A DNA stretch of 64,000 nucleotides, taken from NCBI GenBank assembly GCA_900169235.1, contig FWCC01000080.1, forward strand, positions 203,860 through 267,859, in the 5' to 3' direction. This stretch comes from Zarea fungicola (taxonomy: Eukaryota > Ascomycota > Sordariomycetes > Hypocreales > Cordycipitaceae). Position 1 is the stretch's first letter. The number at the start of each line of letters is the position of its first letter. The notes below the pieces were generated by a model, which was given only the letters and a program-made list of their open reading frames with translations, had not been told where the DNA came from and did no database searches. The position numbers were made by a program, and so were the translations under genes. This document shows, piece after piece, positions 22,905 to 41,778 of this stretch.

Positions 22905-23935
22905 ATGTCATCAAAGAAACAGAGCCCATTGACGTTCTCGCCAGCTTCGGTGAGCGGCCACGAAGACAAGGTGTCGCCTCAAGATGCAGGCAATACAACA
23001 ACCCCTGCATCAGATTCTCAACTAGCACTTACGCCAGTGAAAAGTGTAGAGCCGGCTTACATTACTGGCATAAAGCTTTACATTACTGGCATAAAGCTTT
23101 ACATTACTGGCATAAAGCTTTTTCGTGGCCTTGTCGTTAGTCGCCTTTCTTATGCTCCTCGATGTTTCTATTGTTGGCACGGTAAGTATCCCATTGCGAC
23201 AAAACGCAAGGAGACGATGAAGCAGCATACAGGATATAATGAGTTGATACTGATACTCTCTACAGGCCATTCCTAGAATCACGAGCGACTTCCACTCCCT
23301 TAAAGATGCCGGCTGGTATGGTAGCGCATATCTGTTTGCCATCTGCTCTCTGCAGCCACTTGCTGGAAAGATCTACACATACTTTGACTCCAAAATTACA
23401 TTTCTCGGCTTCTTTGCCATATTTGAGGTTGGCTCTCTATTATGTGGCGTTGCAAAATCGTCCAAAATGCTCATCGCGAGCAGAGTCGTCGCCAGATTGG
23501 GCGGCGCTGGACTCATGAACGGTGCTCTTACCATCATCTCAGCTGCTGTGCCTTTATCCAAGCGACCGATGTATATGGATGCCATGATGGGCAGTATGTT
23601 TACTCCTTTCTGACTTCAGTCTATGATGGAAAACCAACTATTATTCTAGTTGCTCAAATGGGTGTTGTCTTTGGCCTGCTACTTGGCGGACCATTCACCG
23701 AAAATACCACTTGGCGCTGGTGCTTCTATACCAACTTACCCATTGGCGCTCTCGTTACTGTCCTGCTGTTTGCAAGTTCTATACCCTCTAGTAATGTCAA
23801 ACCCCGTGGGCAGCAACTCTTCCAGACCATCTATCACGAGCTCGACCTACCACTCTTTATCCTTTTCGCGCCATCTATTATTATGCTGCTGCTCGCACTG
23901 GAATGGGGTGGCAGTGCCTATCCGTGGAAAAGCGC
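22905..23935 (+). pseudogene. truncated MFS (DHA-type) efflux transporter
   Basis: ATG at 22905 (MSSKKQSPLTF) opens a polar N-terminus. At 23057-23119 a 21-bp unit encoding YITGIKL is present three times just before transmembrane helix 1. A one-base excess in the following T-run shifts the frame; read one base over, the expected LDVSIVGT follows, then a GTAAGT intron (23182-23265) and a good MFS core: AIPRITSDF, DAGWYGSAYL, the loop ARLGGAGLMNG. A second intron (GTATGT to CTAG, about 23594-23649) precedes GVVFGLLLGGPFTENTTWRWCF. After EWGGSAYPWKS the similarity ends, so roughly the C-terminal half of about 14 helices is missing. It is not expected to work. Confidence 0.72.
23057..23119 (+). 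repeat. 21-bp unit, three perfect tandem copies
   Basis: Units at 23057-23077, 23078-23098 and 23099-23119 are identical and each encode YITGIKL in frame. The repeat sits at the cytosolic edge of the first membrane helix of the MFS pseudogene. Perfect identity in otherwise decayed sequence points to recent slippage or duplication. Confidence 0.9.
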
Positions 23936-26900
23936 TCCTCATTTTCAATGCGATAAACGCCTTTCAAGTTCTATGCAAAAACGAACAAGCAGCGAGCCAC
24001 CCCTCCATATTGCCGCTGAATCCTTTTGCCAAAGGCACGTCAAATCTCCCCCCCGCGGGCTGTTCGCCGTCTATCAGACGCCTCTCTGACTCCAGTAGTT
24101 CCCCTATTACGCTTCTCCGACAAGGACACAGTCTCCAACGGCACAATAATGAAGAATGCACCGATATTGCGTTCAAGACTCTTGAGTACGAGACTGGGCA
24201 TATAGTGGACACTATATGTTCAAGGGATCAGACGCACGTCGATTTCCGTACGATGTTGGTATTTATTCCCAACTTATTGTTCAAGGCACTCAGCACGCTC
24301 ATGCAAGAGTCAGAAAATAAGTGTCCTCAAAGCAGAATTGAACTAGATAAGCACAAGATGGCTTGCTGCAAGTATGATTACCATAGTCTCTACTCTGCGT
24401 TGTTTACTAACAGAAAAGCAGAGCGCTATCTTACGATGCTGGGAATGTAATCGCATCGAAGAGCCTGGCGATAACAAGTCCAATTATTTTTATAATGCCA
24501 CCAATGCTACCTTTTACAGCTATCTACCGTCATTGACGCAGTGTTTTTCTCTTTACTGGCAATCTTTGGATTGCGAGTGCTCAATGCAGGACATGGTTGT
24601 ATCTTGGCATATCGTACCGAAGCCATAGGTGATGCCAAACAATAGTAAACTACATTTACTTGCCTGGTCCAGATTCCAAAGTCTTCAGTCTTCCTACTTC
24701 AGCCAGCTTCGGTCGGCTTCATTGGAGGTGATGACATAATTCAGCGACAAACTGATGAATTTCATATGGAAGGCTACCCCGATGCTCGGCAAGCTTACAC
24801 TGATTGTCGCCTTGCTGTTTTGAGCGTGGAAGTACACACCTTGCGGGGCCTATACAACCCATAGAATAAAAGCAAGAAGGCACCACTTCATTGTGCCGGC
24901 AGATGAACTTGAAGAGGCCATCAGATTGCCAGTATATCTTGCTTGAGACTGTTTTGCCTTTGTCCCAATGACCAACATCGGTGTCAAGGCTGTCATTTAT
25001 ACAAGACCAATTGAGGATAGCATCCACTCTCTAAACAAGAGGTCTTGATACAGTCTATATTTGACTGCCAACTGAGGCAACTTCTGAACATGGCCAAATT
25101 ACATCGCCGGATAAGAGACAAAGCAGCAAAGCCACAAGCCCACCAAAATAGACCATGCTAAAGAAGTAAACGTCTTGGGAGTGTATTTTTCTTCAAGTTG
25201 CGCCGCGTTTTTGCAAGCACCAGCATCACGAAACAAATTCATACTTTAGGGTGCGGGCGAAGGTGCGGGCGAGGGTGCGGGTGCCATGTATTGGCAGTTA
25301 GATCTTTGCTGGGATCAAAACAAGGAAGCCAGTCGCTAGTGATACATTCCTGATACCAACTAAGTTCAAGAACGTTGTCAATAATTTAAACTGAACCAGG
25401 CATTTATTGTATTATAGCAGCTACTCCTGGTTTAGTGGGTAGAGCAGTGTTGGCTACTTTTTCGTTTCTTCGCTTCACTACTGTACTATGCGTCACAATT
25501 GATCTGTCCCATAATTGTTTGGCTGACGTATGCTCTGTGAGTGCAACTGAAAGAAGGTCTGCTCAACATGCAGTTGGAGTACAAGAAATTTGACATTGAT
25601 GTTGAAGCAGAATAACTGGAAAATCAGATATATCTGATTGAAATTGGATATATTAATAGCAAGACGCTGATTTTGTGAACTACAGTCACAGATGAATAAG
25701 CGTACTGGCGCAGCTTCCCGTCAATTTGGGAGTCTCAACATTGCTCAATTGTGCCGTGCTTTTCGCACCGAAATGCAACGATAAGTGGATTATGCCACTC
25801 AGGTATCAATCCATGGTATCTGAACTGGCTGTTCTGTTTTGTGCAAATCTCTGAACCAAGAGTTGACGCTGTCGGCACCCGGCCCGATACCAAGCCGAAT
25901 AGGCGGTCAAAGCTTCAAGAGGATCTTTTGGCATATGGGTCATGCAAAGGTTCTACATGAAAGTTCTTTTACCATGGCCAGTTCAGTTTATTTGTTGCGG
26001 GCCTGCCGTTGCGACTTGATTCCGGTCAGACCCTTACTCCATGGCATAAACCCGCACCGCCGCCTTCCTATCCTATCCTACGCTTTTTGCGTTTCTGTAG
26101 CTAGTTTATTTTATACCCACAGCGTCAGCTGAGGCGGGACGCACGTTTTAATGGGGCACGGTGAACGATGTCCGGTAGATGCCGGCTCTCACCAGAGAGG
26201 GTCAGTAGTTCGTCTAGAGCGGCAGGGATGCGATATGGTACAGTGGGCCGTATAATACATAGACCGCTTTTACGGCGCGGTAGCCGCGGAATTTTTGGAT
26301 CAACCATGAATTTATTGGCATGATTCAGTAATTAATTACATCATTGCCCGGAAACAAGTGCTAGTGTTGCTGCCTGCCAACTTCGCACTTACAAGCCGAG
26401 TTGCCTTCTCTCGTGGGCTGGGAAACTCCATTTCATATGGCTCACATTCTATTGGTGTGCAGTGACTAATATTGTTAGTCTCGTTTAGGCACCAGGCTCG
26501 TTCATCTCGGGTCCCGAGCCGTATCAAGTGGAGGGGGTTCGGCCTAAACCCATGCCTTGAGCCCCAGTTCCACGAACTCAAGCATAATCACCAGGCCAGC
26601 CCCTCGCTCCACAACCTCGCAACTCGCAACCATGTGTAGAACCGTGCAGGATCCGCGGCGTGGAGATTTGGGTACCATAGCAGGGAGTAGTTTATCATCT
26701 TGGTTTAGAACTGGCGGCTATTGAATATTTAGCGTTACGAAGCATGCCCACACTGCTACCTGGACTTAAGTATGACATCGTCGAAATTTGAGTGGGAGCA
26801 CACGTATTGCGACTGTTTGAAGAGAAGAATGTATTTAAATTTGTGAATGAAATGTGTGAAGATTGATGCATTCATTCTCCGACTAGCTAAGCATATTATC

Positions 26901-27036: not shown

Positions 27037-27480
27037 TTACCAGAATCGGTTGTGGGGGTCGACCTTGTGAGGGTCGACAGCTCTGGCCTCGCTTGCCTGT
27101 CCTTCTTCCTTCTTCCAGAAGCGGTTGTGGGGGTCAACCTTGTGAGGGTCGACAAAGGAATCCTCGTGCACCTTGGCCTCCTCCTTCTTCCAGAAGCGGT
27201 TGTGAGGGTCAACCTTGTGAGGGTCGACAACTCTGGCCTCGCTTGCCTGTCCTTCTTCCTTCTTCCAGAAACGGTTGTGGGGGTCAACCTTGTGAGGGTC
27301 GACAAAGGAATCCTCGTGCACCTTGGCCTCCTCCTTCTTCCAGAAGCGGTTGTGGGGGTCAACCTTGTGAGGATCGACAAAGGAATCCTCGTGTACCTTG
27401 GCCTCCTCCTTCTTCCAGAAACGGTTGTGAGGGTCAACCTTGTGAGGATCAACGAAGCTATCTTGGATTGGCTCAATGGC
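27037..27480 (-). repeat. 75-bp coding tandem repeat
   Basis: Five full 75-bp units plus a partial one encode the identical VDPHKVDPHNRFW segments and their linkers. Units differ by a few substitutions, mostly synonymous or in the linker (AKVHEDSF versus GQASEAR). The identity of the peptide segment across all copies, with the variation confined to linkers, indicates selection on the segment or recent homogenisation. Confidence 0.92.
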
Positions 27481-27537
27481 GAGGGCAGCAGCACTGCCCA
27501 AACCGGCGAGGACGAAAAGAGATGAAGAGAATTTCAT
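27037..27537 (-). CDS. repeat-containing RiPP precursor peptide (dikaritin-type candidate)
   Basis: An intronless gene of 166 aa. Residues 1-20 (MKFSSSLFVLAGLGSAAALA) are a clear signal peptide. After a short IEPIQ leader the protein is made of 25-residue units. The 13-residue segment VDPHKVDPHNRFW occurs six times, identically, at residues 29-41, 54-66, 79-91, 104-116, 129-141 and 154-166. Five copies are followed by KKEE, a Kex2-type dibasic site plus acidic residues; the sixth ends at the stop codon. Two linker types alternate: KKEE-AKVHE-DSF (units 1, 2, 4) and KKEE-GQASE-AR(V/A) (units 3, 5). Signal peptide, identical cores and Kex2 sites are the known design of dikaritin precursors such as UstA and of other kexin-processed repeat proteins. 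The divergent DUF3328 gene 1.1 kb away favours a cyclised RiPP. Exact core borders and product are unknown. Confidence 0.85.
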   Translation of the reverse strand: MKFSSSLFVLAGLGSAAALAIEPIQDSFVDPHKVDPHNRFWKKEEAKVHEDSFVDPHKVDPHNRFWKKEEAKVHEDSFVDPHKVDPHNRFWKKEEGQASEARVVDPHKVDPHNRFWKKEEAKVHEDSFVDPHKVDPHNRFWKKEEGQASEARAVDPHKVDPHNRFW

Positions 27538-27630: not shown

Positions 27631-27656
27631 CACGTGGATTACACCTGCTTTATATA
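27631..27656 (-). promoter_or_regulatory. CACGTG box and TATA box upstream of the precursor gene
   Basis: On the minus strand TATATAAA (plus-strand 27649-27656) lies about 112 bp before the precursor ATG, a usual distance for a fungal TATA promoter. A perfect CACGTG palindrome (27631-27636), a bHLH-type site, lies between it and the gene. Use of either site is inferred. Confidence 0.5.
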
Positions 27657-28641: not shown

Positions 28642-29674
28642 ATGCTAAAGAATTCCGTTTCCAAGTATTTTGACAATGCCAAAGCAGGAGATTATAGCCC
28701 ACTGCAGTACCAGGATGCCCATGTGAACGATGAGATCTCTGGGCAGGGTCATAGCTCACACAACATCACAAGGCAAAAGTCTTGGAGCAAGTGGATGTCT
28801 ATCAGCTTTACTGTACTCCCCTGGATGCTATCGGCTTTGCTAGCTTGCATTATTGTGCACTATCACACTCATGGCGGCGACAGATTTCATCAGCACAAGT
28901 TGTACGCTTCTCAACTGACCTACTCGCCAGCGCAAGACGTGATTGAATACGAACTGAAAATGTATCATTCAGGCATTAGCGAAGCTCCAGTCGAGTTTCA
29001 AGGACCTCCATCGAAGGAACTTGATCAAGCATGGGACTCGTTATATAACTGTTAGTTTAATCCTGCGTCTGTTTTCCATTATTAAAAGCTAATACATCCT
29101 AGTTGGCATATCGACAGTCTCAAAGTCAGAAGCCAAGCTCATGACGAACTACACGTCGCCGGTCCCAAACCACGAGGACAGACATATTATGGAGCTTGAT
29201 GTATTTCACCAACTCCACTGCTTGGTAAGGACATTGCAAAATCACATCTGTTCATTAATTAACGGCTGTCTCTAGAACATGTTCCGTAAGGCACTCACTC
29301 CCATCTACCTTCAAGACTGGGAGCCAGTCAGGGACCCAGATATCTCAAAAGACAATTGGACTATCCCAGCGTGGCCATTTGACGAACTTGAGAAAAACCG
29401 GGTTGAGCACGGGATAAATCCATGGCACATTGGTCACTGCCTGGAGAGCATTCGGCAGTCACTCATGTGCCATGCAGACGTCACCCCTGCCGTATGGCAC
29501 TGGGATAAGTCGGCGTCAAACCCAACTCGAAACAAGCCTTGGCTTACGGTGCCACATACCTGTCGCAACTTTGATCGTATTCGAGATTGGGGTTTGAAAC
29601 ACAAGCTGCAGTGGGACTTTGACTATGAAGTAAGGCTGCCTGAAGACTTTGAGGTGCCCACGTATCCAGGGTGA
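28642..29674 (+). CDS. DUF3328 / UstYa-UstYb-like oxidative cyclase
   Basis: Three exons (28642-29050, 29103-29224, 29276-29674; phases agree) give 309 aa. One membrane helix (about residues 52-74, FTVLPWMLSALLACIIV) anchors the protein; a polar cytosolic N-terminus precedes it. The lumenal domain has ELDQAWDSLYN, then the two HxxHC motifs that define the family: HQLHC (172-176) and HIGHC (228-232), with SIRQSLMCHADVTP after the second. UstYa-family proteins are copper-dependent oxidases that install macrocycles or modify side chains in fungal RiPPs (ustiloxin, phomopsin, asperipin, victorin). The gene faces the repeat precursor head-to-head, which makes that peptide the likely substrate. The family also works in some non-RiPP pathways, so the pairing is the key argument. 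Confidence 0.9.
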
Positions 29675-29977: not shown

Positions 29978-31033
29978 ATGCCGCACCCAGCGCTATTTGC
30001 ACCGGATATTCTTCTTGACATCTTTCTCAGACTCCCGCAACAGGACTTACTTCTGGTGCAAAGAGTTTGCCGTATGTGGCACGAATTCATCTCAGACAGT
30101 CATGCTCTCCAGGTCGCGCTCTTCTTTCAACCAGACGCAGATACAAGTACACAGCGGCCGAGCGACAATGAGGTGGTGCTGAACCCGCTCCTGAGAGCAC
30201 GTTTCCCTTCCTTCTTCGAGCTTTCTTCAAGAGTTCCGAGACAGCATGCCTGGCTTCTAGGTCCCTGGTTTGACTCACACTGGGCTGAGAGCCTTCATTC
30301 ATCACCATCCAGTGCGGATGCCAACCCAGACTCTGCTGGCGCTCCCTCCACAGTGGGAGAGAGCCGAGATGCGCGGTACCCAGAGCTCGATCAGCAGCGG
30401 TCCGACGCATACAGGCGACGCGGTGCAAGCTGGCGGAGGATGATTCCGTGTCGCCCAGCGCCGAGGCAGCTGCAGGTTCAGCAGCATCGTCGGCGCGTGG
30501 GACCGCGTTCGGCGGCAAGGCATGCAACCTTTTACAAGATGGACTTTGAAAACTGTGGCGGAGGCGGAGCTGCCAGTCACGACGGTGACTCTGCTGCTGC
30601 GGAAGCCAGCGGGAGCGTACATGTGCGTCATCTCACATTTGGGCTCATTTACGATGTAGCAGATTCCACCTTTTTTCACCGTATACCATACCCGGCATAC
30701 AGTATAACTTTCGACTATAGTTTCAAGGACCGAGTCTCCTCGCTGCCCATGCTGCCTGCCTTCGTTTCTGGGCCGTCACAAACCCGCATGACGGTAGAGG
30801 AGAGACTGAAGGGGACCAAGGCACAAGGATATAGTGCTCCGGAACAGCTACAAAAGGAGCTTCAAGAAGGCAAATTAGGTGGCAACGGAACGCTCGTCAT
30901 GCATCTATCAGGAGATATGCTCTCCATAACCGGGCACCGGCGATCGCCATACCAGGGACAATTTACAGTCGAAGAGCCCTATGCTGTAGATCAAATCGAT
31001 TGGACCGATAAATTTGATTACATCTGTACATGA
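29978..31033 (+). CDS. F-box domain protein
   Basis: An intronless frame of 351 aa with ATG at 29978. Residues 8-50 (FAPDILLDIFLRLPQQDLL followed by VQRVCRMWHEFI) form a typical N-terminal F-box, which recruits target proteins to SCF ubiquitin ligases through Skp1. The middle has the fungal pattern ASWRRMIPCRPAPRQL and FYKMDF seen in many ascomycete F-box proteins. Residues 100-190 are unusually rich in Ser, Arg and Ala with weak family match, so a compensated frameshift there cannot be excluded. It starts 303 bp after the DUF3328 stop on the same strand. Nothing shows that it belongs to the peptide pathway. Confidence 0.8.
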   Translation: MPHPALFAPDILLDIFLRLPQQDLLLVQRVCRMWHEFISDSHALQVALFFQPDADTSTQRPSDNEVVLNPLLRARFPSFFELSSRVPRQHAWLLGPWFDSHWAESLHSSPSSADANPDSAGAPSTVGESRDARYPELDQQRSDAYRRRGASWRRMIPCRPAPRQLQVQQHRRRVGPRSAARHATFYKMDFENCGGGGAASHDGDSAAAEASGSVHVRHLTFGLIYDVADSTFFHRIPYPAYSITFDYSFKDRVSSLPMLPAFVSGPSQTRMTVEERLKGTKAQGYSAPEQLQKELQEGKLGGNGTLVMHLSGDMLSITGHRRSPYQGQFTVEEPYAVDQIDWTDKFDYICT

Positions 31034-31804: not shown

Positions 31805-34011
31805 TCACTCGCTATTGTCTCCAGTCGGCGCCATGAAACCAAAAAAGTCTCCGCCGCCGTTGAGAGCACCAAGCAGAATATCGTCCAGCCAGCCAATGCC
31901 AGTCGTCGACGAAGAGAACAGGGTCAGACCGGGGAAATCCCACTCAAACACAAACTGGTCGGGGACAAACGAATCTAGGTCGCCCTTTGCTGAAGACCCA
32001 TGAAACTCAGCATCAGCAGCCGGCCCCTCGTTGCCGCTACCGGTCGCGTCCAACTGCCCATACTCCCCACGGAGCGCCCGCGTGAACTTGTCCATGCCTG
32101 TGCGCAGGAGCTGCAGGTACATCTTGGCCGTGGTATTGGAGATGCCGCTCATCGCGGCCCCGCCCGCAGCCCCGAGCTCCTGCGCCAGAATCAGGCCGCA
32201 GCGGACCAGGTCGTCGCTGACGCTGGCGCTGTCCTCGGGCAGCAGGATGCACAGCTTGAGGAGCAAGAGGTAGCAAAAGGCGCACTTGGCCCACACAAAG
32301 TCCATGGCGTAGCGCAGGTAGTGCAGGTACAGGCGCGGCTCCGCGATGATGGTCTGCAGGTGCTGTCGGAGCGCCTCCTTGGCCATGGCGAGGATGGAGC
32401 GCTGCGCGGGGGACATGAAGTCGACGTTCTCCACGCCGGCGGCCTTGACGGCGCGGCAGAGGGCCATGGTGTTGGCCCAGCACTTTTGCACGCGCAGGTT
32501 GACGCGGATCCAGGCGGGCACGTCGCGCATCTGCTCGAGCATGCGCTCCCAGTCGCTGTGCCACAGCTCAATGTCGATTTTCGCGTCGCGCACCAGGCTC
32601 AGAATCTCCTCCTCGTCTTCGTACGCTGGATCGGACAAGGAGGCAAAGATGTTGGCGCGCAGCACATTCAGCTCCACCTGCGCAAAGAGGAATCGGTCCA
32701 GCACGGTGGCGTGCGGGCTGTCGAGAATGATTCTCGTGCGTCGCGGATCTCCGACGAATTTAAACGTCATCATGTCGCCCGCGTCGACGTGGAGTATGAA
32801 GCTCAGAACAAGCAGGTGAAACCAGGTTCGGGTTTGCCGCATCAGCGCGTCAGCACCGGTCAAGTGGCGGCCTCCGTCGTTGACCATGGCTGCGCTCATT
32901 TCATCATACGAGTCTGGCAAGCCAATCTCAATGGCTAGTCGTGTCGCGCTCGCAACAAAGAGCGATCGCTCCGCTGAGTAGCAGGCCCTAACCATGAGCG
33001 CCTGCACCGTCTCTAGGGAGGCCGGAACCGGCGTTGAAAGCACGCTGCTTATCATTCGCTTGAGATGAAAGTTGAGCAGCCGCCATTCATGCGAATCGGT
33101 CCCACAGACGACGCGGCAACCCACTGTGCAGATGGTGGCGAAGAGAAAGCTAGAGCGCTGCCTGATGCTCGGCATAGTATCGTACGCTGGGTCGAATACG
33201 GGGACATAGTGATCGCAGCCCTCAAAAAAGGTGGTAAAGTACTTTTCCGCTTGCTCCATCGTGAGCAGCCCAATGGACACAAAGTCGGGTAGGCGCCCCG
33301 CCTCCACGATGAAATGCGACCGCCGGCTCTTGCGCGGGGCTTGGCTGATTACTGGCGATCCATGTGTCGAAGTTTGATGATTCTGGGCCGATTCCATGTA
33401 TCCCGAGACGTGATTGCCCGCACCGCCGCGGTACGCATCCAGTCGCAGAGGCTGGGCTGTCGCGATTGGGTCGTAGGGGCTGGTGGAAGCGGCCAAACCC
33501 GTCGGCGACGCTTGCTCTATTGAGCGCGTGGTTGACCGAGTGGCTTCCGCGCTGTGTGATTGTGTGTCCAGTCGTTTTTGCAAATTTGTCATTTGCTCAT
33601 GTAAAGAGTCAATCTTTCTTCAACGGAACGTATCAAATCAGCGAATGAAGGATGGGCACGTCAGGTTGCGCAAAACGTACTCTTGGTAGGGGTCTTTCGG
33701 CCTCTCTGCATAGTTGCAGGCTTTACTCAAGGCGCGACATCTACATGATGGTGAGTAAACTACTGAAGAAATCTGCGAGAAGCGACGGACCTGGTGCATG
33801 GATTTAGGCCATTGCATTTTACCTGCCCGCGGTTAGCACAAGCCGCAATGCATGGGTTGAGTTTGTTTAGCCACCAACTTTGGACAGTCGGCATGCAGCG
33901 CAGGCTTTCTTCGTATTCATTAGCTTCGTTCAAAGCATCCCCTGTTATACTTCTTACCGGTATTCTTTTTTTACGCGGCCTGGCTGACCTGCTCTCCTGT
34001 GAGTCGGACAT
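31805..34011 (-). CDS. Zn2Cys6 transcription factor encoded over micro-exons
   Basis: Five exons (33958-34011, 33879-33908, 33791-33822, 33677-33740, 31805-33613) give 662 aa. The start is MSDSQESRSARPRKKRIP. Only with the two small exons does a canonical binuclear cluster appear: KACAAC-RLSK joined to VKC-NGLNP-CTR joined to C-RALSKA-C-NY, that is C-x2-C-x6-C-x5-C-x2-C-x6-C. Splice support includes GTAAGA at 33957 and a CTAAC branch point before the acceptor at 33823. The cluster is followed by a short coiled coil (IDSLHEQMTNLQKRL) and by the fungal-specific transcription factor domain in the large exon. It may regulate its neighbours, including the peptide genes 4 kb away; this is inference from position. 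The large exon is GC-rich and throws many antisense open frames. Confidence 0.85.
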
Positions 34012-34992
34012 GTCAACCGTAGTGAGCCTGTGATGAATTGAAACTCTACCAAGGACTGAATGTCTGGATGGGGCATTGTTACGGGCAGTTCAGTTGCGCC
34101 ACTAGAGCTCCAGCGGCCAATCATTGCATTGGTTGACCACTCCTGGAACAGAGCAGTCAGACAGCACTAATCCTCAGACCACACATGTACTGTAGAAAAA
34201 ACAATCGACTATATACAATAAAAATTGTATTTTATTGTGTGATGTCTTATTTCTCCAAAGCGTTCCAATTTCAGCTCAAGTCAGGCCGGACATGGTGCAC
34301 CAGTTGGTAAATAAGACGAGGCTCCTGTCCCTAACGTATAGTTACACTGGAGGGAATGTTGGACCCTCTCGAATCGCGGGGTATTTTCCCTTTTTGACTG
34401 GTCAACAAACTCCCACTGCTAAAAATAATTTCGTTGTAGAAGACGGGCACGAGAAGTTGACTGCTTTGGAGAGTGTCATGTACTATAAGATCACTTATAC
34501 CCCATTCTTGCGACTAGCTATTGAGAACATTTCCAGCCGGGCAAGATGCACCGAGCTCGAGTTGGATTAGTTCTGGCCGCCGTACCTAGTTGTCACTTCA
34601 AGGAACTACACTGCGCACATTGCCGAAATCCATTGTTGCGGGCCAGTCTGCGTCGCCTAGCTTTGTTGCTGGATTTACCCGATGATTTTTTTGGAATTTT
34701 TTTAATGTCCCCATCTACATTTGACCAGAAACTTGATGCAAGAAATCAATCAGTTTATTTACCGTATTTGTTGCCGACCGGGTCAGCTGGTTAGCTTCCG
34801 ACGATCCGTAGGCCACCTTGAATGGTCGATTCCCCGCCATCTCAGTTCACCGACACCGAACAACAATTACCCGAGACGACTACGTTTGCTGGCCTATAAA
34901 TAATCTCTCATCATCAGCATCAAGGTGATGTAGGCATGCCACCAATTTCGTTCTAGCGCTAGTAACCATTGAGAGCCCAAAGTTTTCAAACC
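34012..34992. other. divergent promoter region of regulator and carboxylesterase
   Basis: About 1 kb between head-to-head genes. No domain-bearing frame is seen. It should contain both promoters. Confidence 0.4.
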
Positions 34993-36318
34993 ATGAGTGA
35001 GGGTTCAAGGATTCAGATTCAGCTTCGCGATGGCGCCATATACGCCATGAAGCATAATCACCTCATCAGCGCTCGTGGAGTGCGATATGCCAACGCAGCC
35101 CGATTTCAGCCACCACAACCGATCCAGCCCTGGCAAGACGTGATGGACTGCACGGGGCCGGCCACGATATGCCCGCAGCTGCCGTCACGGCTCGAGGCCC
35201 TCAACGGGCCTATTGCTGGCGGGCGCGAAATGGATGAGGACTGCCTTCATGTCAGCATCTACGCTCCAGTTCAAGATTCCGCGAGTTCATTGCGGCCGGT
35301 CGTGGCATTCATCCACGGAGGAGGCTACACGTCCGGCGGAGGAGACCTGGACTGCTACGGCGGTGCCGGCCTTGCCGAGATCGGTGATGTTGTTGTAGTC
35401 ACCATCACATACAGGCTGGGCATCCTGGGCTATCAACCCATTGACGGTGTTGCGCCGGCGAACCTGGGTCTCCTTGACCAGATGGCAGCCCTGCGATGGA
35501 TTCAAGACAACATTTCCTGCTTTGGTGGTGACCCACGGCGCGTGACTCTTGCCGGCGCTTCGGCCGGGGGCGATTCCATCTACTGCCTCTTTGGCGCCGA
35601 CGGTGCAGAGGATTTGTTTCAACGAGCCATCTTTCAAAGCACGCCTCTTGGGGTTCGACATGTGGACCGCGACGCCATGGTCAAGACGCTCGGTGCGTCT
35701 GCCAAGAAAATGTTGGGAGACGGCTATTCGACCATGGGCGTTGCGGAGGTCTTGTCCGTGCAAATGAGTCTAGCTATGGAGTCGAGAGGGTTTGCCGCTG
35801 CCGGGATGCCTTTTGCACCGACCCTTGGACACGCACCCCTTGCATGCACGCAGGCCGAGTTTGATGCTCGTGTCCGGCGTGCTCTTGCCCGCATCCCCAT
35901 CTTTATCGGGTACTGCGCCGACGAGGGCACTGCATTTGAGGGCATATTCAATGCTATGAGGCCAAAAGTCAGGCCAAGCTTTACAGGCAGCGCTGCCGAC
36001 TTCATATCGAGGAGTTGGTTCCAGCAGGGCTCAGACAAACTGTTGCAACAAGCTCGAGAGGCTGGCGGTGAGCCGTGGTTTTATAGGCTTACTTTTGCTC
36101 CCAAGGAGAGCCCGTTCAAGGCATCGCATACCATGGAGATGCCGTTTCTACTGGGCAACTGGGACGCGTGGAACGGTGCGCCGATGATGAAGAGCCGTGA
36201 TGCCAAGAGCACTGTTGAGATGGTCGGTCCGCATGTGAAACGGCTCTGGGCGACCTTTGCGCGGGGGGGGGATGTCGGAAGAAAGAACTTTATAATTGAT
36301 GAGAGTTTCTTCGTGTAG
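34993..36318 (+). CDS. type-B carboxylesterase (alpha/beta hydrolase)
   Basis: An intronless frame of 441 aa starting at the ATG at 34993 (MSEGSRIQIQL). It has the family landmarks in order: MDEDCLHVSIY (type-B signature 2), the oxyanion strand FIHGGGY, the nucleophile elbow LAGASAGGD (Ser nucleophile), the acid region CADEGTAFEG and the His region SHTMEMPFLLG. There is no signal peptide, so it should act inside the cell on an ester substrate that cannot be inferred. It is somewhat shorter than secreted fungal type-B lipases (about 530-580 aa), as in cytosolic detoxification or pathway esterases. It is divergent from the Zn2Cys6 regulator. Confidence 0.88.
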   Translation: MSEGSRIQIQLRDGAIYAMKHNHLISARGVRYANAARFQPPQPIQPWQDVMDCTGPATICPQLPSRLEALNGPIAGGREMDEDCLHVSIYAPVQDSASSLRPVVAFIHGGGYTSGGGDLDCYGGAGLAEIGDVVVVTITYRLGILGYQPIDGVAPANLGLLDQMAALRWIQDNISCFGGDPRRVTLAGASAGGDSIYCLFGADGAEDLFQRAIFQSTPLGVRHVDRDAMVKTLGASAKKMLGDGYSTMGVAEVLSVQMSLAMESRGFAAAGMPFAPTLGHAPLACTQAEFDARVRRALARIPIFIGYCADEGTAFEGIFNAMRPKVRPSFTGSAADFISRSWFQQGSDKLLQQAREAGGEPWFYRLTFAPKESPFKASHTMEMPFLLGNWDAWNGAPMMKSRDAKSTVEMVGPHVKRLWATFARGGDVGRKNFIIDESFFV

Positions 36319-38964: not shown

Positions 38965-41778
38965 ATGGGCATCAAAGATCGGTTCAGGGCTTCGGCAACC
39001 GAGGTCCCTGTTATTGAAGGTGTTACCACTGGCGCCGAGGCCGCCCCCCGCGGGGCCAAGCTTCGTGCATTTCGCAAGGAGCACCAATGGGATCCATTCC
39101 TCGACATCGAGAAGCTCGATAGCTCAACCCCCGACGAGAGTCTCGCGGAGAAGGCTTTCCCTCCCGATGAGGAGAGTCTTGAAGAGGATTCGCCGTACTC
39201 TGAGGTTCGCTCTGCAGTATGTACAGCCTAGTCTCATTCGATTTTTTCTTGTAATCCATCTGCTAACCATTGCTATCAGGTCCCAAACAGCGACGCCGAT
39301 CTCCCCATCAACACAATCCGTGCCTGGTTTCTTGGTTTTCTCTTCTGCACGATTGTCGCTGCCTGCAACATCTTGCTAGGCCTGCGAAATGCCCCCATTA
39401 TCATTTCATCTACAGTTGTTCAGCTGATTTCCTACCCGTAAGTATCTTCTGCCCTTTCTCTAGTTCTGCAGATGTAAACAATTGCCCACCGGAGGTTCAT
39501 GCTTACGATGACGTGCAATTCTAGTGTAGGTAACTTCTGGGCATGGGTGGTGCCGGCTTGGACATTCTCGCTGTTTGGCAAGACATTTGAGCTCAACCCC
39601 GGCCCGTTCAATGTCAAGGAACATACCCTTGTCACCATCATGACTGCCGCAGGCACTGCGCCGAGCTACGCCATCGATATTCTACTCGCTCAAGAGATTT
39701 ACTACGATCAGGCTTTCCACTGGGGCTTCCAGCTGCTTCTCATTTTGTCGACTCAGGCCATGGGACTTGGTGTTGCCGGTATCTCGAGACGATTCCTCGT
39801 TTGGCCATCGGCAATGGTGTGGCCTGCGACGCTGGTCTTCACATCGGTCATGTACTCGCTGCATGACCACACTCCGTCTGACCCAGCGGCTACCAACGGA
39901 TGGAAAATGGGAAGATACATCTTTTTCCTCATTGTTTCTGGATGCACCTTTGTTTGGGAGTGGATTCCAAACGTCTTTGCTACCTTTCTGTCCGTCTTTA
40001 CATTCCCCATCTGGATTGCACCGAACAACGTCGTGGTCAACCAGCTGTTCGGCTCCACCAGCGGCATTGGCATTCTCCCAATCTCTTTCGACTGGAACAC
40101 CATCAGCGGCTACCTGGGTAGTCCGCTTCAATTCCCTGCCTTCGCCATCTTCAACTTGCTTGCCGGCTTTCTCTTCGTCTTCGTCGCCGCCCTGGGCATG
40201 ACTTATGGAGGGCCTGACTACTTCAAGTATCTGCCAATTAGGTATGGTCCAATCCTCAGAGTTACCGAGTTGGAAAGCCTTTGAATGCTAACATGAGTCT
40301 AGTGCCAATACAAACTTTGACCACTTTGGCAAGAAATACAATGTCTCCAGAATTCTGACCCCCGACTTTACGCTCAATGAGACGGCCTATAAGGAATACT
40401 CACCAATCATCATTGGCCCCGTGTTTTCATTGTCGTATGCAATGTCTTTCGCTGGTCTTATCGGCACCATTACTCACGTTGCGCTGTTTTACGGGCCTGA
40501 TATCTGGAGACGTGTCCGCGACTCGCGTTCGGAACAACCCGATATTCACATGAAGCTCATGAGAAAGTACAGAGAGTGCCCGGAATGGTGGTTTTCCATC
40601 ATCTTCCTCATCTCCTTTGGATTTGGTATGGCCGCTTGTCAGCACTGGCCTACTCATCTTCCCTGGTGGGCCTACATCATTGCCATCCTTATTGGCGTTG
40701 TCTTTTTCATCCCTGTGGGTATGGTTCAGGCAATTACAAATCAGCAGACTGGTCTCAACGTCATCACCGAGTTGGTAGTTGGATTCATGTAAGTCGACCC
40801 ACAAGGCCGTTATTTACCTTGTTGACATGACCAAAGAACAAAATATAGTTACTAACAGAATTCAAGGCTTCCTGGTCGCCCCGTCGCCATGATGCTCTTC
40901 AAGAGCTTCGGCTACATGATGAGCTTTAACGGCCTCAACTACATCAGTGATATGAAGGTTGGCCACTACATGAAAATCCCCCCGCGCTCCATGTTTGCGG
41001 CTCAGGTTTTCGCCGTCACCTGGCTTTCGATTGTCCAGATTTCAACCTACAACTTCTTGCGAAACCACATTGAGGGTATCTGCACGCCCGACCAGGCCCA
41101 AGGCATCACTTGCCCCGGTGCGCGCACCTTTTTCAATGCCAGTGTTATCTGGGGTGTTGTAGGACCTGCTCGAGTCTTTGGTAAAGGAGCAATGTACGTT
41201 AAAGCCCCTAACCCCTGCCGTGCTGAGTGACAGCACAACACGCTGAACCTTTGCGCTAACATGATCGTTGTAGCTTCTCCTGGACCAATTATTTCTGGCT
41301 GATTGGTTTCGCCCTGCCCGTTATCCATTATCTTCTGGCGCGCCGCTACCCCAAGAGCTTCCTTCGCTACATCATGTTCCCAGTCATCTTCTCTGCCACG
41401 GGCCAGCTACCACCGGCGACTCTGTACTACATGTTTGTGTGGACCTCGGTTGGTCTCTTCTTCAACTACTGGATTCGCAGGCGATACACTGGATGGTGGA
41501 GTAAGTTCAGGGCCTAAACACTGCCTGATAGTTTAGCAACGTTTCGACTAACGCATCTTTTCTAAACAGATCGCTACATCTACACCTTGTCCGGTGCCCT
41601 GGATATCGGTCTCGCCCTCTGCGTTGTCATCATTGGCATTGGCCTTGGTCTCGGCAATGCCAATTTCCCCGACTGGTGGGGTAATGTAGTGAACGCTAAC
41701 ACTCTCGATTGGGACGCAAAGGCCCATCAGAAAACTTGGGTGCCCGGCATGAAGCCATTTGGGCCCGAGTCCTGGTAG
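38965..41778 (+). CDS. OPT family oligopeptide transporter
   Basis: Seven exons (38965-39216, 39280-39437, 39525-40241, 40303-40788, 40867-41193, 41274-41500, 41570-41778), all phases consistent, encode 791 aa. The cytosolic N-terminus (about 95 residues, acidic before the first helix) is followed by some 14-16 hydrophobic helices. The family motif NPGPFNVKEH lies in the first third, as do DILLAQEIYY, FGSTSGIGILPISFDW and ISDMKVGHYMKIPPR later in the chain; all are standard for fungal OPT proteins. OPTs import small peptides, glutathione or metal chelates, coupled to protons, at the plasma membrane. Family members near 800 aa are usual. Position 9 kb from a peptide precursor invites a link, but OPT genes are common and generally import rather than export. 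Confidence 0.93.

Follow-up and report, generated by a model that had tools for sequence, protein, structure and literature searches.

A short intron-free open reading frame of 166 amino acids, running from ATG to TAA on the minus strand (27037..27537, read from 27537 to 27037), lies within the 64,000-nucleotide stretch of the Zarea fungicola genome analysed here (the window), and a gene for a UstYa (DUF3328) oxidase of 309 amino acids lies beside it on the plus strand (28642..29674). The two genes are divergent, with 1104 bases from the ATG of the one to the ATG of the other. The shorter gene encodes a repeat protein, referred to below as the precursor, with a signal-peptide-like N-terminus, MKFSSSLFVLAGLGSAAALA (residues 1-20; 27478..27537, minus strand), in which composition and hydropathy reveal a basic start that leads into a hydrophobic core and closes with A-x-A. 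Six exact copies of a 13-residue segment, VDPHKVDPHNRFW, start at residues 29, 54, 79, 104, 129 and 154 (27415..27453, 27340..27378, 27265..27303, 27190..27228, 27115..27153 and 27040..27078, respectively, all minus strand), in units of 25 amino acids with a repeat period of 75 bases. A KK pair, a putative Kex2 site, directly follows the Trp in all five internal copies (27409..27414 after copy 1; 27334-27339, 27259-27264, 27184-27189 and 27109-27114 after copies 2 to 5; minus strand), so that units 2 to 5 are flanked by KK on both sides. The sixth copy runs to the stop codon, ending in Trp without a KK, and its C-terminal Trp therefore needs no cleavage. The signal-peptide-like start, the six identical segments and the five KK sites after Trp had been the basis of the original prediction, and all were confirmed in this reading frame. 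The precursor contains neither Tyr nor Cys. A TATA-box-like element, TATATAAA, was read from the sequence some 112 bases upstream of the start codon of the precursor (27649..27656, minus strand) and may function as such.

Kex2-processed repeat proteins (KEPs) are recognised by a signal peptide and by repeats between KR, KK, RK or RR sites (PMC7329392), and the precursor has at least three tandem repeats of at least 8 amino acids between such pairs, none above 100 amino acids. A search of its own 43.1 Mb genome with the precursor returned a single match, itself. Fungi commonly secrete repeat proteins, and the precursor might on that ground be an intact, repeat-rich secreted surface or wall protein in which the KK pairs are incidental. 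The position of KK straight after Trp in 5/5 internal copies, the last copy needing none and having none, speaks against this, as do the lack of a match to any wall-protein Pfam family in the precursor and the adjoining UstYa gene, and we consider an intact wall protein very unlikely.

Comparison of the six segment copies revealed five variable nucleotide positions, all five synonymous, and no amino-acid changes. The 13 codon columns of the segment comprise eight that are invariant, five with synonymous variation only and none that changes the amino acid, whereas the twelve codon columns of the five linkers (KK included) comprise three, two and seven, respectively. Per site, synonymous differences amounted to 0.334 in the segment versus 0.516 in the linkers, and amino-acid-changing differences (pN) to 0.000 versus 0.206. 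The probability that five randomly placed changes in the segment would all be synonymous was 7e-5, or 8e-4 with transitions favoured, figures that are indicative since they ignore the common ancestry of the copies. When calculated for parts of the segment, it was 0.03 (uniform) or 0.07 (transition-favoured) for VDPHK, 0.003 or 0.012 for VDPHNRFW and 0.13 or 0.23 for HNRFW; these weaker values do not single out a shortest conserved unit within VDPHKVDPHNRFW. The linkers are of just two types, EEAKVHEDSF (three copies) and EEGQASEARV/A (two copies), and their variation thus amounts to few events. The synonymous-only variation supports the proposal, also made in the original prediction, that selection acts on the VDPHKVDPHNRFW segment while the linkers vary.

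No homologue of the precursor was detected at E 0.01 or at E 10 among 82 word-sharing candidates from a set of 5.8 billion proteins, the candidates being limited to about 91-290 amino acids; a homologue built on another core would have no words in common with the precursor. Plasmids contained no relative, and none of the three pattern matches in viral contigs or the 18 in bacterial and archaeal contigs was confirmed, these sets representing the wrong organisms for a fungal precursor. A search of NCBIfam gave no match. Weak Pfam matches to YycE-like_C and DUF6241 lay under the cut-offs and within the repeats, and both assignments were rejected. The core of ascomycete alpha-pheromones carries a Cys pair; with no match to MF_alpha at E 0.01 and no Cys in the precursor, an alpha-pheromone precursor was also rejected. 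A likeness of HNRFW to the melanocortin motif, HFRW, was dismissed, as the order of residues differs and no other support was found. HNRFW was absent from the open-access literature searched, which for the KEP surveys means their main text, and the core sequence may already stand in the supplementary list of such a survey without description. The accessible text of a Trichoderma RiPP paper (PMC7099791) and of PMC12142736 and PMC10989895 held no matching precursor. Within the literature and sequence sets searched, the precursor is thus undescribed, as had been claimed.

The UstYa gene, which the original prediction did not include, was modelled by eye from three exons (28642-29050, 29103-29224 and 29276-29674), all of them open. 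Its product matched PF11807 with an E value of 2.3e-46 over residues 46-285, and the first exon and the last exon also gave the match when scanned singly. Residues 54-72 are strongly hydrophobic and resemble a membrane helix, and both HxxHC motifs are present, HQLHC at 172 and HIGHC at 228. A sequence search of the PDB returned no match at E 1. The locus therefore shows the arrangement by which dikaritins are recognised, namely a UstYa/DUF3328 gene with two HxxHC motifs beside a precursor gene. In CctR the HxxHC residues are required for activity, their change to alanine abolishing it, and they are the proposed two-copper site; the enzyme depends on O2, on electrons and on two copper ions per monomer, and the prediction for its large C-terminal domain is that it points into the lumen of the organelle (PMC12435403). 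Against a RiPP reading of the locus, DUF3328 enzymes also work in non-RiPP pathways (PMC12048977).

Relatives of the locus UstYa numbered 109, and the His and Cys residues of both motifs were invariant or nearly so in the 37 chosen for alignment. The nearest was VHEMI08494 of [Torrubiella] hemipterigena (67% local identity), followed by five Trichoderma proteins (55-60%), these six covering 87-95% of the query, and then by an unnamed protein, with 47% identity over 94% of the query, and one from Exophiala, with 39% over 82%; a few short matches reached 55% over 40%. VHEMI08494 and the Trichoderma proteins belong to the same enzyme lineage as the locus UstYa, and by these relatives the host is probably a hypocrealean fungus. 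The sequence that separates the two HxxHC motifs (residues 177-227) is about 20 residues longer than in the Crucibulum and Fusarium proteins compared, a feature common to the locus UstYa and its Torrubiella and Trichoderma relatives. Identity to the other UstYa loci compared from the same genome was 29-34% over at least 140 amino acids in the best cases, with one match of 39% over 127 and values up to 51% over 61 amino acids, and the gene is therefore not a recent local copy.

The pairing of a repeat precursor with a UstYa gene recurs in this genome. Its 55 Pfam exon matches to UstYa were merged into 40 genes (gaps of up to 1 kb) and 35 neighbourhoods (gaps of up to 6 kb). A detector that reports a 4-mer occurring at least three times with a dibasic site between, run on 47 sequences (308 kb with overlaps) and 12 further loci, found a KEP-like open reading frame in 8/35 neighbourhoods, the precursor locus included, and none was seen in the other 27; eight is a lower bound, as 16 of the 35 were seen with a flank of only about 1.5 kb. 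A GC-rich frame (L041), a Lys-rich frame (L056), out-of-frame shadows of real repeats and one ankyrin protein were left out of this count. As a weak control, seven loci of other families (L047-L051, L057 and L058; 26 kb) and the remainder of the window were used, in which the detector flagged one ankyrin protein and zero KEPs. The seven other frames were located on contigs C230 (L004/L052, TVKQNGDILYNNPAGWGKR), C439 (L053, NGNPDILYFMPVGWGKR), C167 (L006, EFLNILDKKDEDDKW...), C157 (L015, 231-533, minus strand, HKYSVSAKEADA-type repeats), C163 (L033, 6868-7377, plus strand, YIAYGA x10), C312 (L035, 7554-7865, minus strand, GGIPWKR cores) and C360 (L042, SVYKSYMADR). Those at L052 (2-640, minus strand) and L053 (2407-2901, minus strand) are related KEPs with DILY....GWGKR repeats and form a duplicated family. 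At the C157 locus tyrosinase was matched near the end of the contig (C157:123776), and in gene content this locus is the closest here to the ustiloxin set. The last copies at L035 (GGIPW) and L033 (YIAYGA) lack KR and end at the stop codon, the GGIPW-stop of L035 being the same Trp-stop design as that of the HNRFW precursor. Ascomycete strains have 5.25 KEPs on average (PMC7329392), so that eight beside UstYa genes are far from random.

A Kex2-processed repeat protein could also release a linear peptide that stays unmodified and acts as a hormone- or pheromone-like signal, with the UstYa neighbour coincidental or serving something else. This would agree with the lack of Tyr and Cys in the precursor and with the absence of any other recognised tailoring enzyme among the scanned frames nearby; moreover, for 78% of KEPs the 15 closest genes include none of the DUF3328 family, 1758 of 7878 having one nearby (PMC7329392). 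We nevertheless regard a linear product as unlikely, because UstYa is the adjacent gene (with about 40 UstYa genes in the genome, a random point would fall this near to one with P ~0.003), because the pairing was found again at seven other loci and because the precursor matched no pheromone family. In the KEP survey, DUF3328 genes peak at the position adjoining KEP genes, and nearly all mating-factor KEPs are without them (PMC7329392).

Beyond the pair, the next gene after UstYa encodes an F-box protein (29978..31033, plus strand; Pfam) and is a candidate member of the locus. It is followed by a Zn(II)2Cys6 transcription factor gene (31808..33900, minus strand, upstream end approximate), identified through a piece joined from three exons (PF00172, E 3.6e-10), the large open reading frame by itself having no Pfam match; this factor is a possible regulator of the pair. 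A carboxylesterase frame (34966-36318; Pfam) and an OPT oligopeptide transporter in three matching pieces (39478-41230, plus strand), about 10 kb from the UstYa gene, lie further on. On the other side of the precursor, the nearest recognised gene consists of MFS transporter pieces in two frames (23254..24086, plus strand), which cover positions 18-130 and 129-203 of the 347 of the profile, hence the N-terminal part only, the second piece being below the cut-off; they may represent a fragment, a pseudogene or a gene with unrecognised introns. Just upstream of them, a 21-base tandem unit is present in three perfect copies (23057-23121). A weak NmrA-like match, under the cut-off, lies about 18 kb away.

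The contig gave no match to tyrosinase and contains a single UstYa gene, and no methyltransferase, P450 or ustiloxin-type peptidase was recognised near the pair among the frames scanned, a chosen part of 109 of at least 110 amino acids with exons unspliced, in which introns can hide genes. The only Kex2-type protease of the genome, by its single P_proprotein match, is encoded on another contig (C183), and the kexin gene that marks epichloecyclin clusters was thus not found at the locus; S10 carboxypeptidases gave 41 exon matches in the genome. The dikaritin list of Ding et al., as quoted in PMC12048977, names a tyrosinase, a methyltransferase, multiple DUF3328 genes, a transporter or a peptidase, and the definition was later relaxed to DUF3328 (PMC12048977). 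Among the frames scanned, the nearby MFS pieces are all that the locus offers from this list of extra genes, which the later definition does not require. Recognition of the MFS transporter in two pieces only, together with the lack of a second UstYa or a peptidase nearby among the scanned frames, would suit a remnant locus whose precursor is no longer expressed or whose pathway is incomplete, but the precursor frame and the UstYa exons are open, the segment varies only synonymously and UstYa has kept its motifs and 67% identity to the Torrubiella protein, all of which renders a remnant exceedingly improbable.

A Kex2-processed repeat protein beside a UstYa gene is the dikaritin-type layout, and we accordingly propose, with a probability of about 0.8, that the locus is a small candidate dikaritin-type RiPP gene pair with a new core, minimal like that of asperipin-2a. 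The kexin-processed RiPP precursor of the original prediction thus stands as the best reading, strengthened by the adjacent oxidase gene, and the fungus probably makes a small modified peptide, so far undescribed, by a known type of pathway. With 1758 DUF3328-accompanied KEPs already listed, this type is common as well as known; what is new here is the core sequence, Tyr-free and chemically interesting.

We infer the course of processing, modification and secretion, as well as the bond and the exact ends of the core, as follows. The precursor would enter the ER by means of its putative signal peptide, Kex2 would cut after each KK in the Golgi, and a carboxypeptidase would trim the lysines, so that every released peptide has VDPHKVDPHNRFW at its C-terminus. 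UstYa, a membrane-anchored copper oxidase of the same compartment, would oxidise the invariant part, the modification most likely being a side-chain cross-link using the C-terminal Trp, Phe or a His. A peptidase encoded elsewhere than in the pair would remove the variable linker, and the small peptide would be secreted, its role most likely being antagonism of, or signalling to, other organisms.

Because the precursor has no Tyr or Cys, a cross-link would have to be made through Trp, Phe or His, or else through an aliphatic carbon. The Trp-stop of copy 6 and the same kind of ending at L035 and L033 point to the terminal residue, here Trp, as the mature C-terminus of the peptide. A tentative extension, to which we attach limited credence, is that UstYa forms a Trp cross-link (for example Trp-His, Trp-Arg or Trp-aliphatic) in this Tyr-free core and that Trp-ending cores (HNRFW-KK here and GGIPW-KR at L035) constitute a separate chemical group of UstYa RiPPs; a bond of this type was without report in the portions of the literature examined. 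In the KEP survey, Tyr occurs in 65.6% of the repeats of DUF3328-accompanied KEPs, in contrast to the Tyr-free precursor, and the figures for Trp are 20.5% with DUF3328 and 24.5% without (PMC7329392). Trp is therefore not enriched beside DUF3328 genes, which speaks against it as the usual target.

The pair, a Tyr- and Cys-free precursor with one UstYa gene, offers a clean two-gene case for asking which other residues get joined. It supplies an exact peptide for the copper-dependent UstYa family, whose characterised RiPP rings mostly begin at Tyr, and a genome with at least eight precursor-UstYa loci lends itself well to setting cores against the enzymes that accompany them.

Among characterised systems, asperipin-2a of Aspergillus flavus (aprA/aprY) is likewise encoded by a small cluster in which one UstYa homologue accompanies a KEP precursor; its core, FYYTGY, is Tyr-linked, unlike the Tyr-free precursor found here, and among the four genes of the cluster are those for a transporter and an isoflavone reductase, for which the present locus has the MFS pieces and the distant, sub-cut-off NmrA-like match (PMC6514808). 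Ustiloxin B also derives from a repeat precursor, UstA, which Kex2 presumably cuts to 13-14-mers before UstQ, UstYa and UstYb carry out the cyclisation; the proteases that trim the ends are described there as unknown, and the system differs in its YAIG core, two UstYa-type genes (ustYa/ustYb), tyrosinase and further tailoring genes, extras that were not recognised here (PMC6514808). The nearest characterised precedent for a ring without Tyr is victorin, whose multi-core precursor is probably cut by Kex2 and whose ring joins a C-terminal Phe to an internal Leu, although it has another core, Phe in place of Trp, and is chlorinated (PMC9233826). The epichloecyclins (gigA) share the repeat precursor and the one DUF3328 gene in a four-gene cluster, but that cluster has its own kexin and a Tyr-based ring, whereas the sole Kex2-type match of the present genome is on another contig (PMC7317419). 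Among the in silico KEP types, G-3, G-8 and P-3 are accompanied by DUF3328 and lack Tyr, as does our precursor; G-3 and G-8 are described as having a di-histidine and P-3 a Trp, together with Pro, while the segment reported here has no HH, unlike G-3 and G-8 (PMC7329392). The genera reported to have type G-3 include Trichoderma and Exophiala (PMC7329392), both of which also hold relatives of the locus UstYa.
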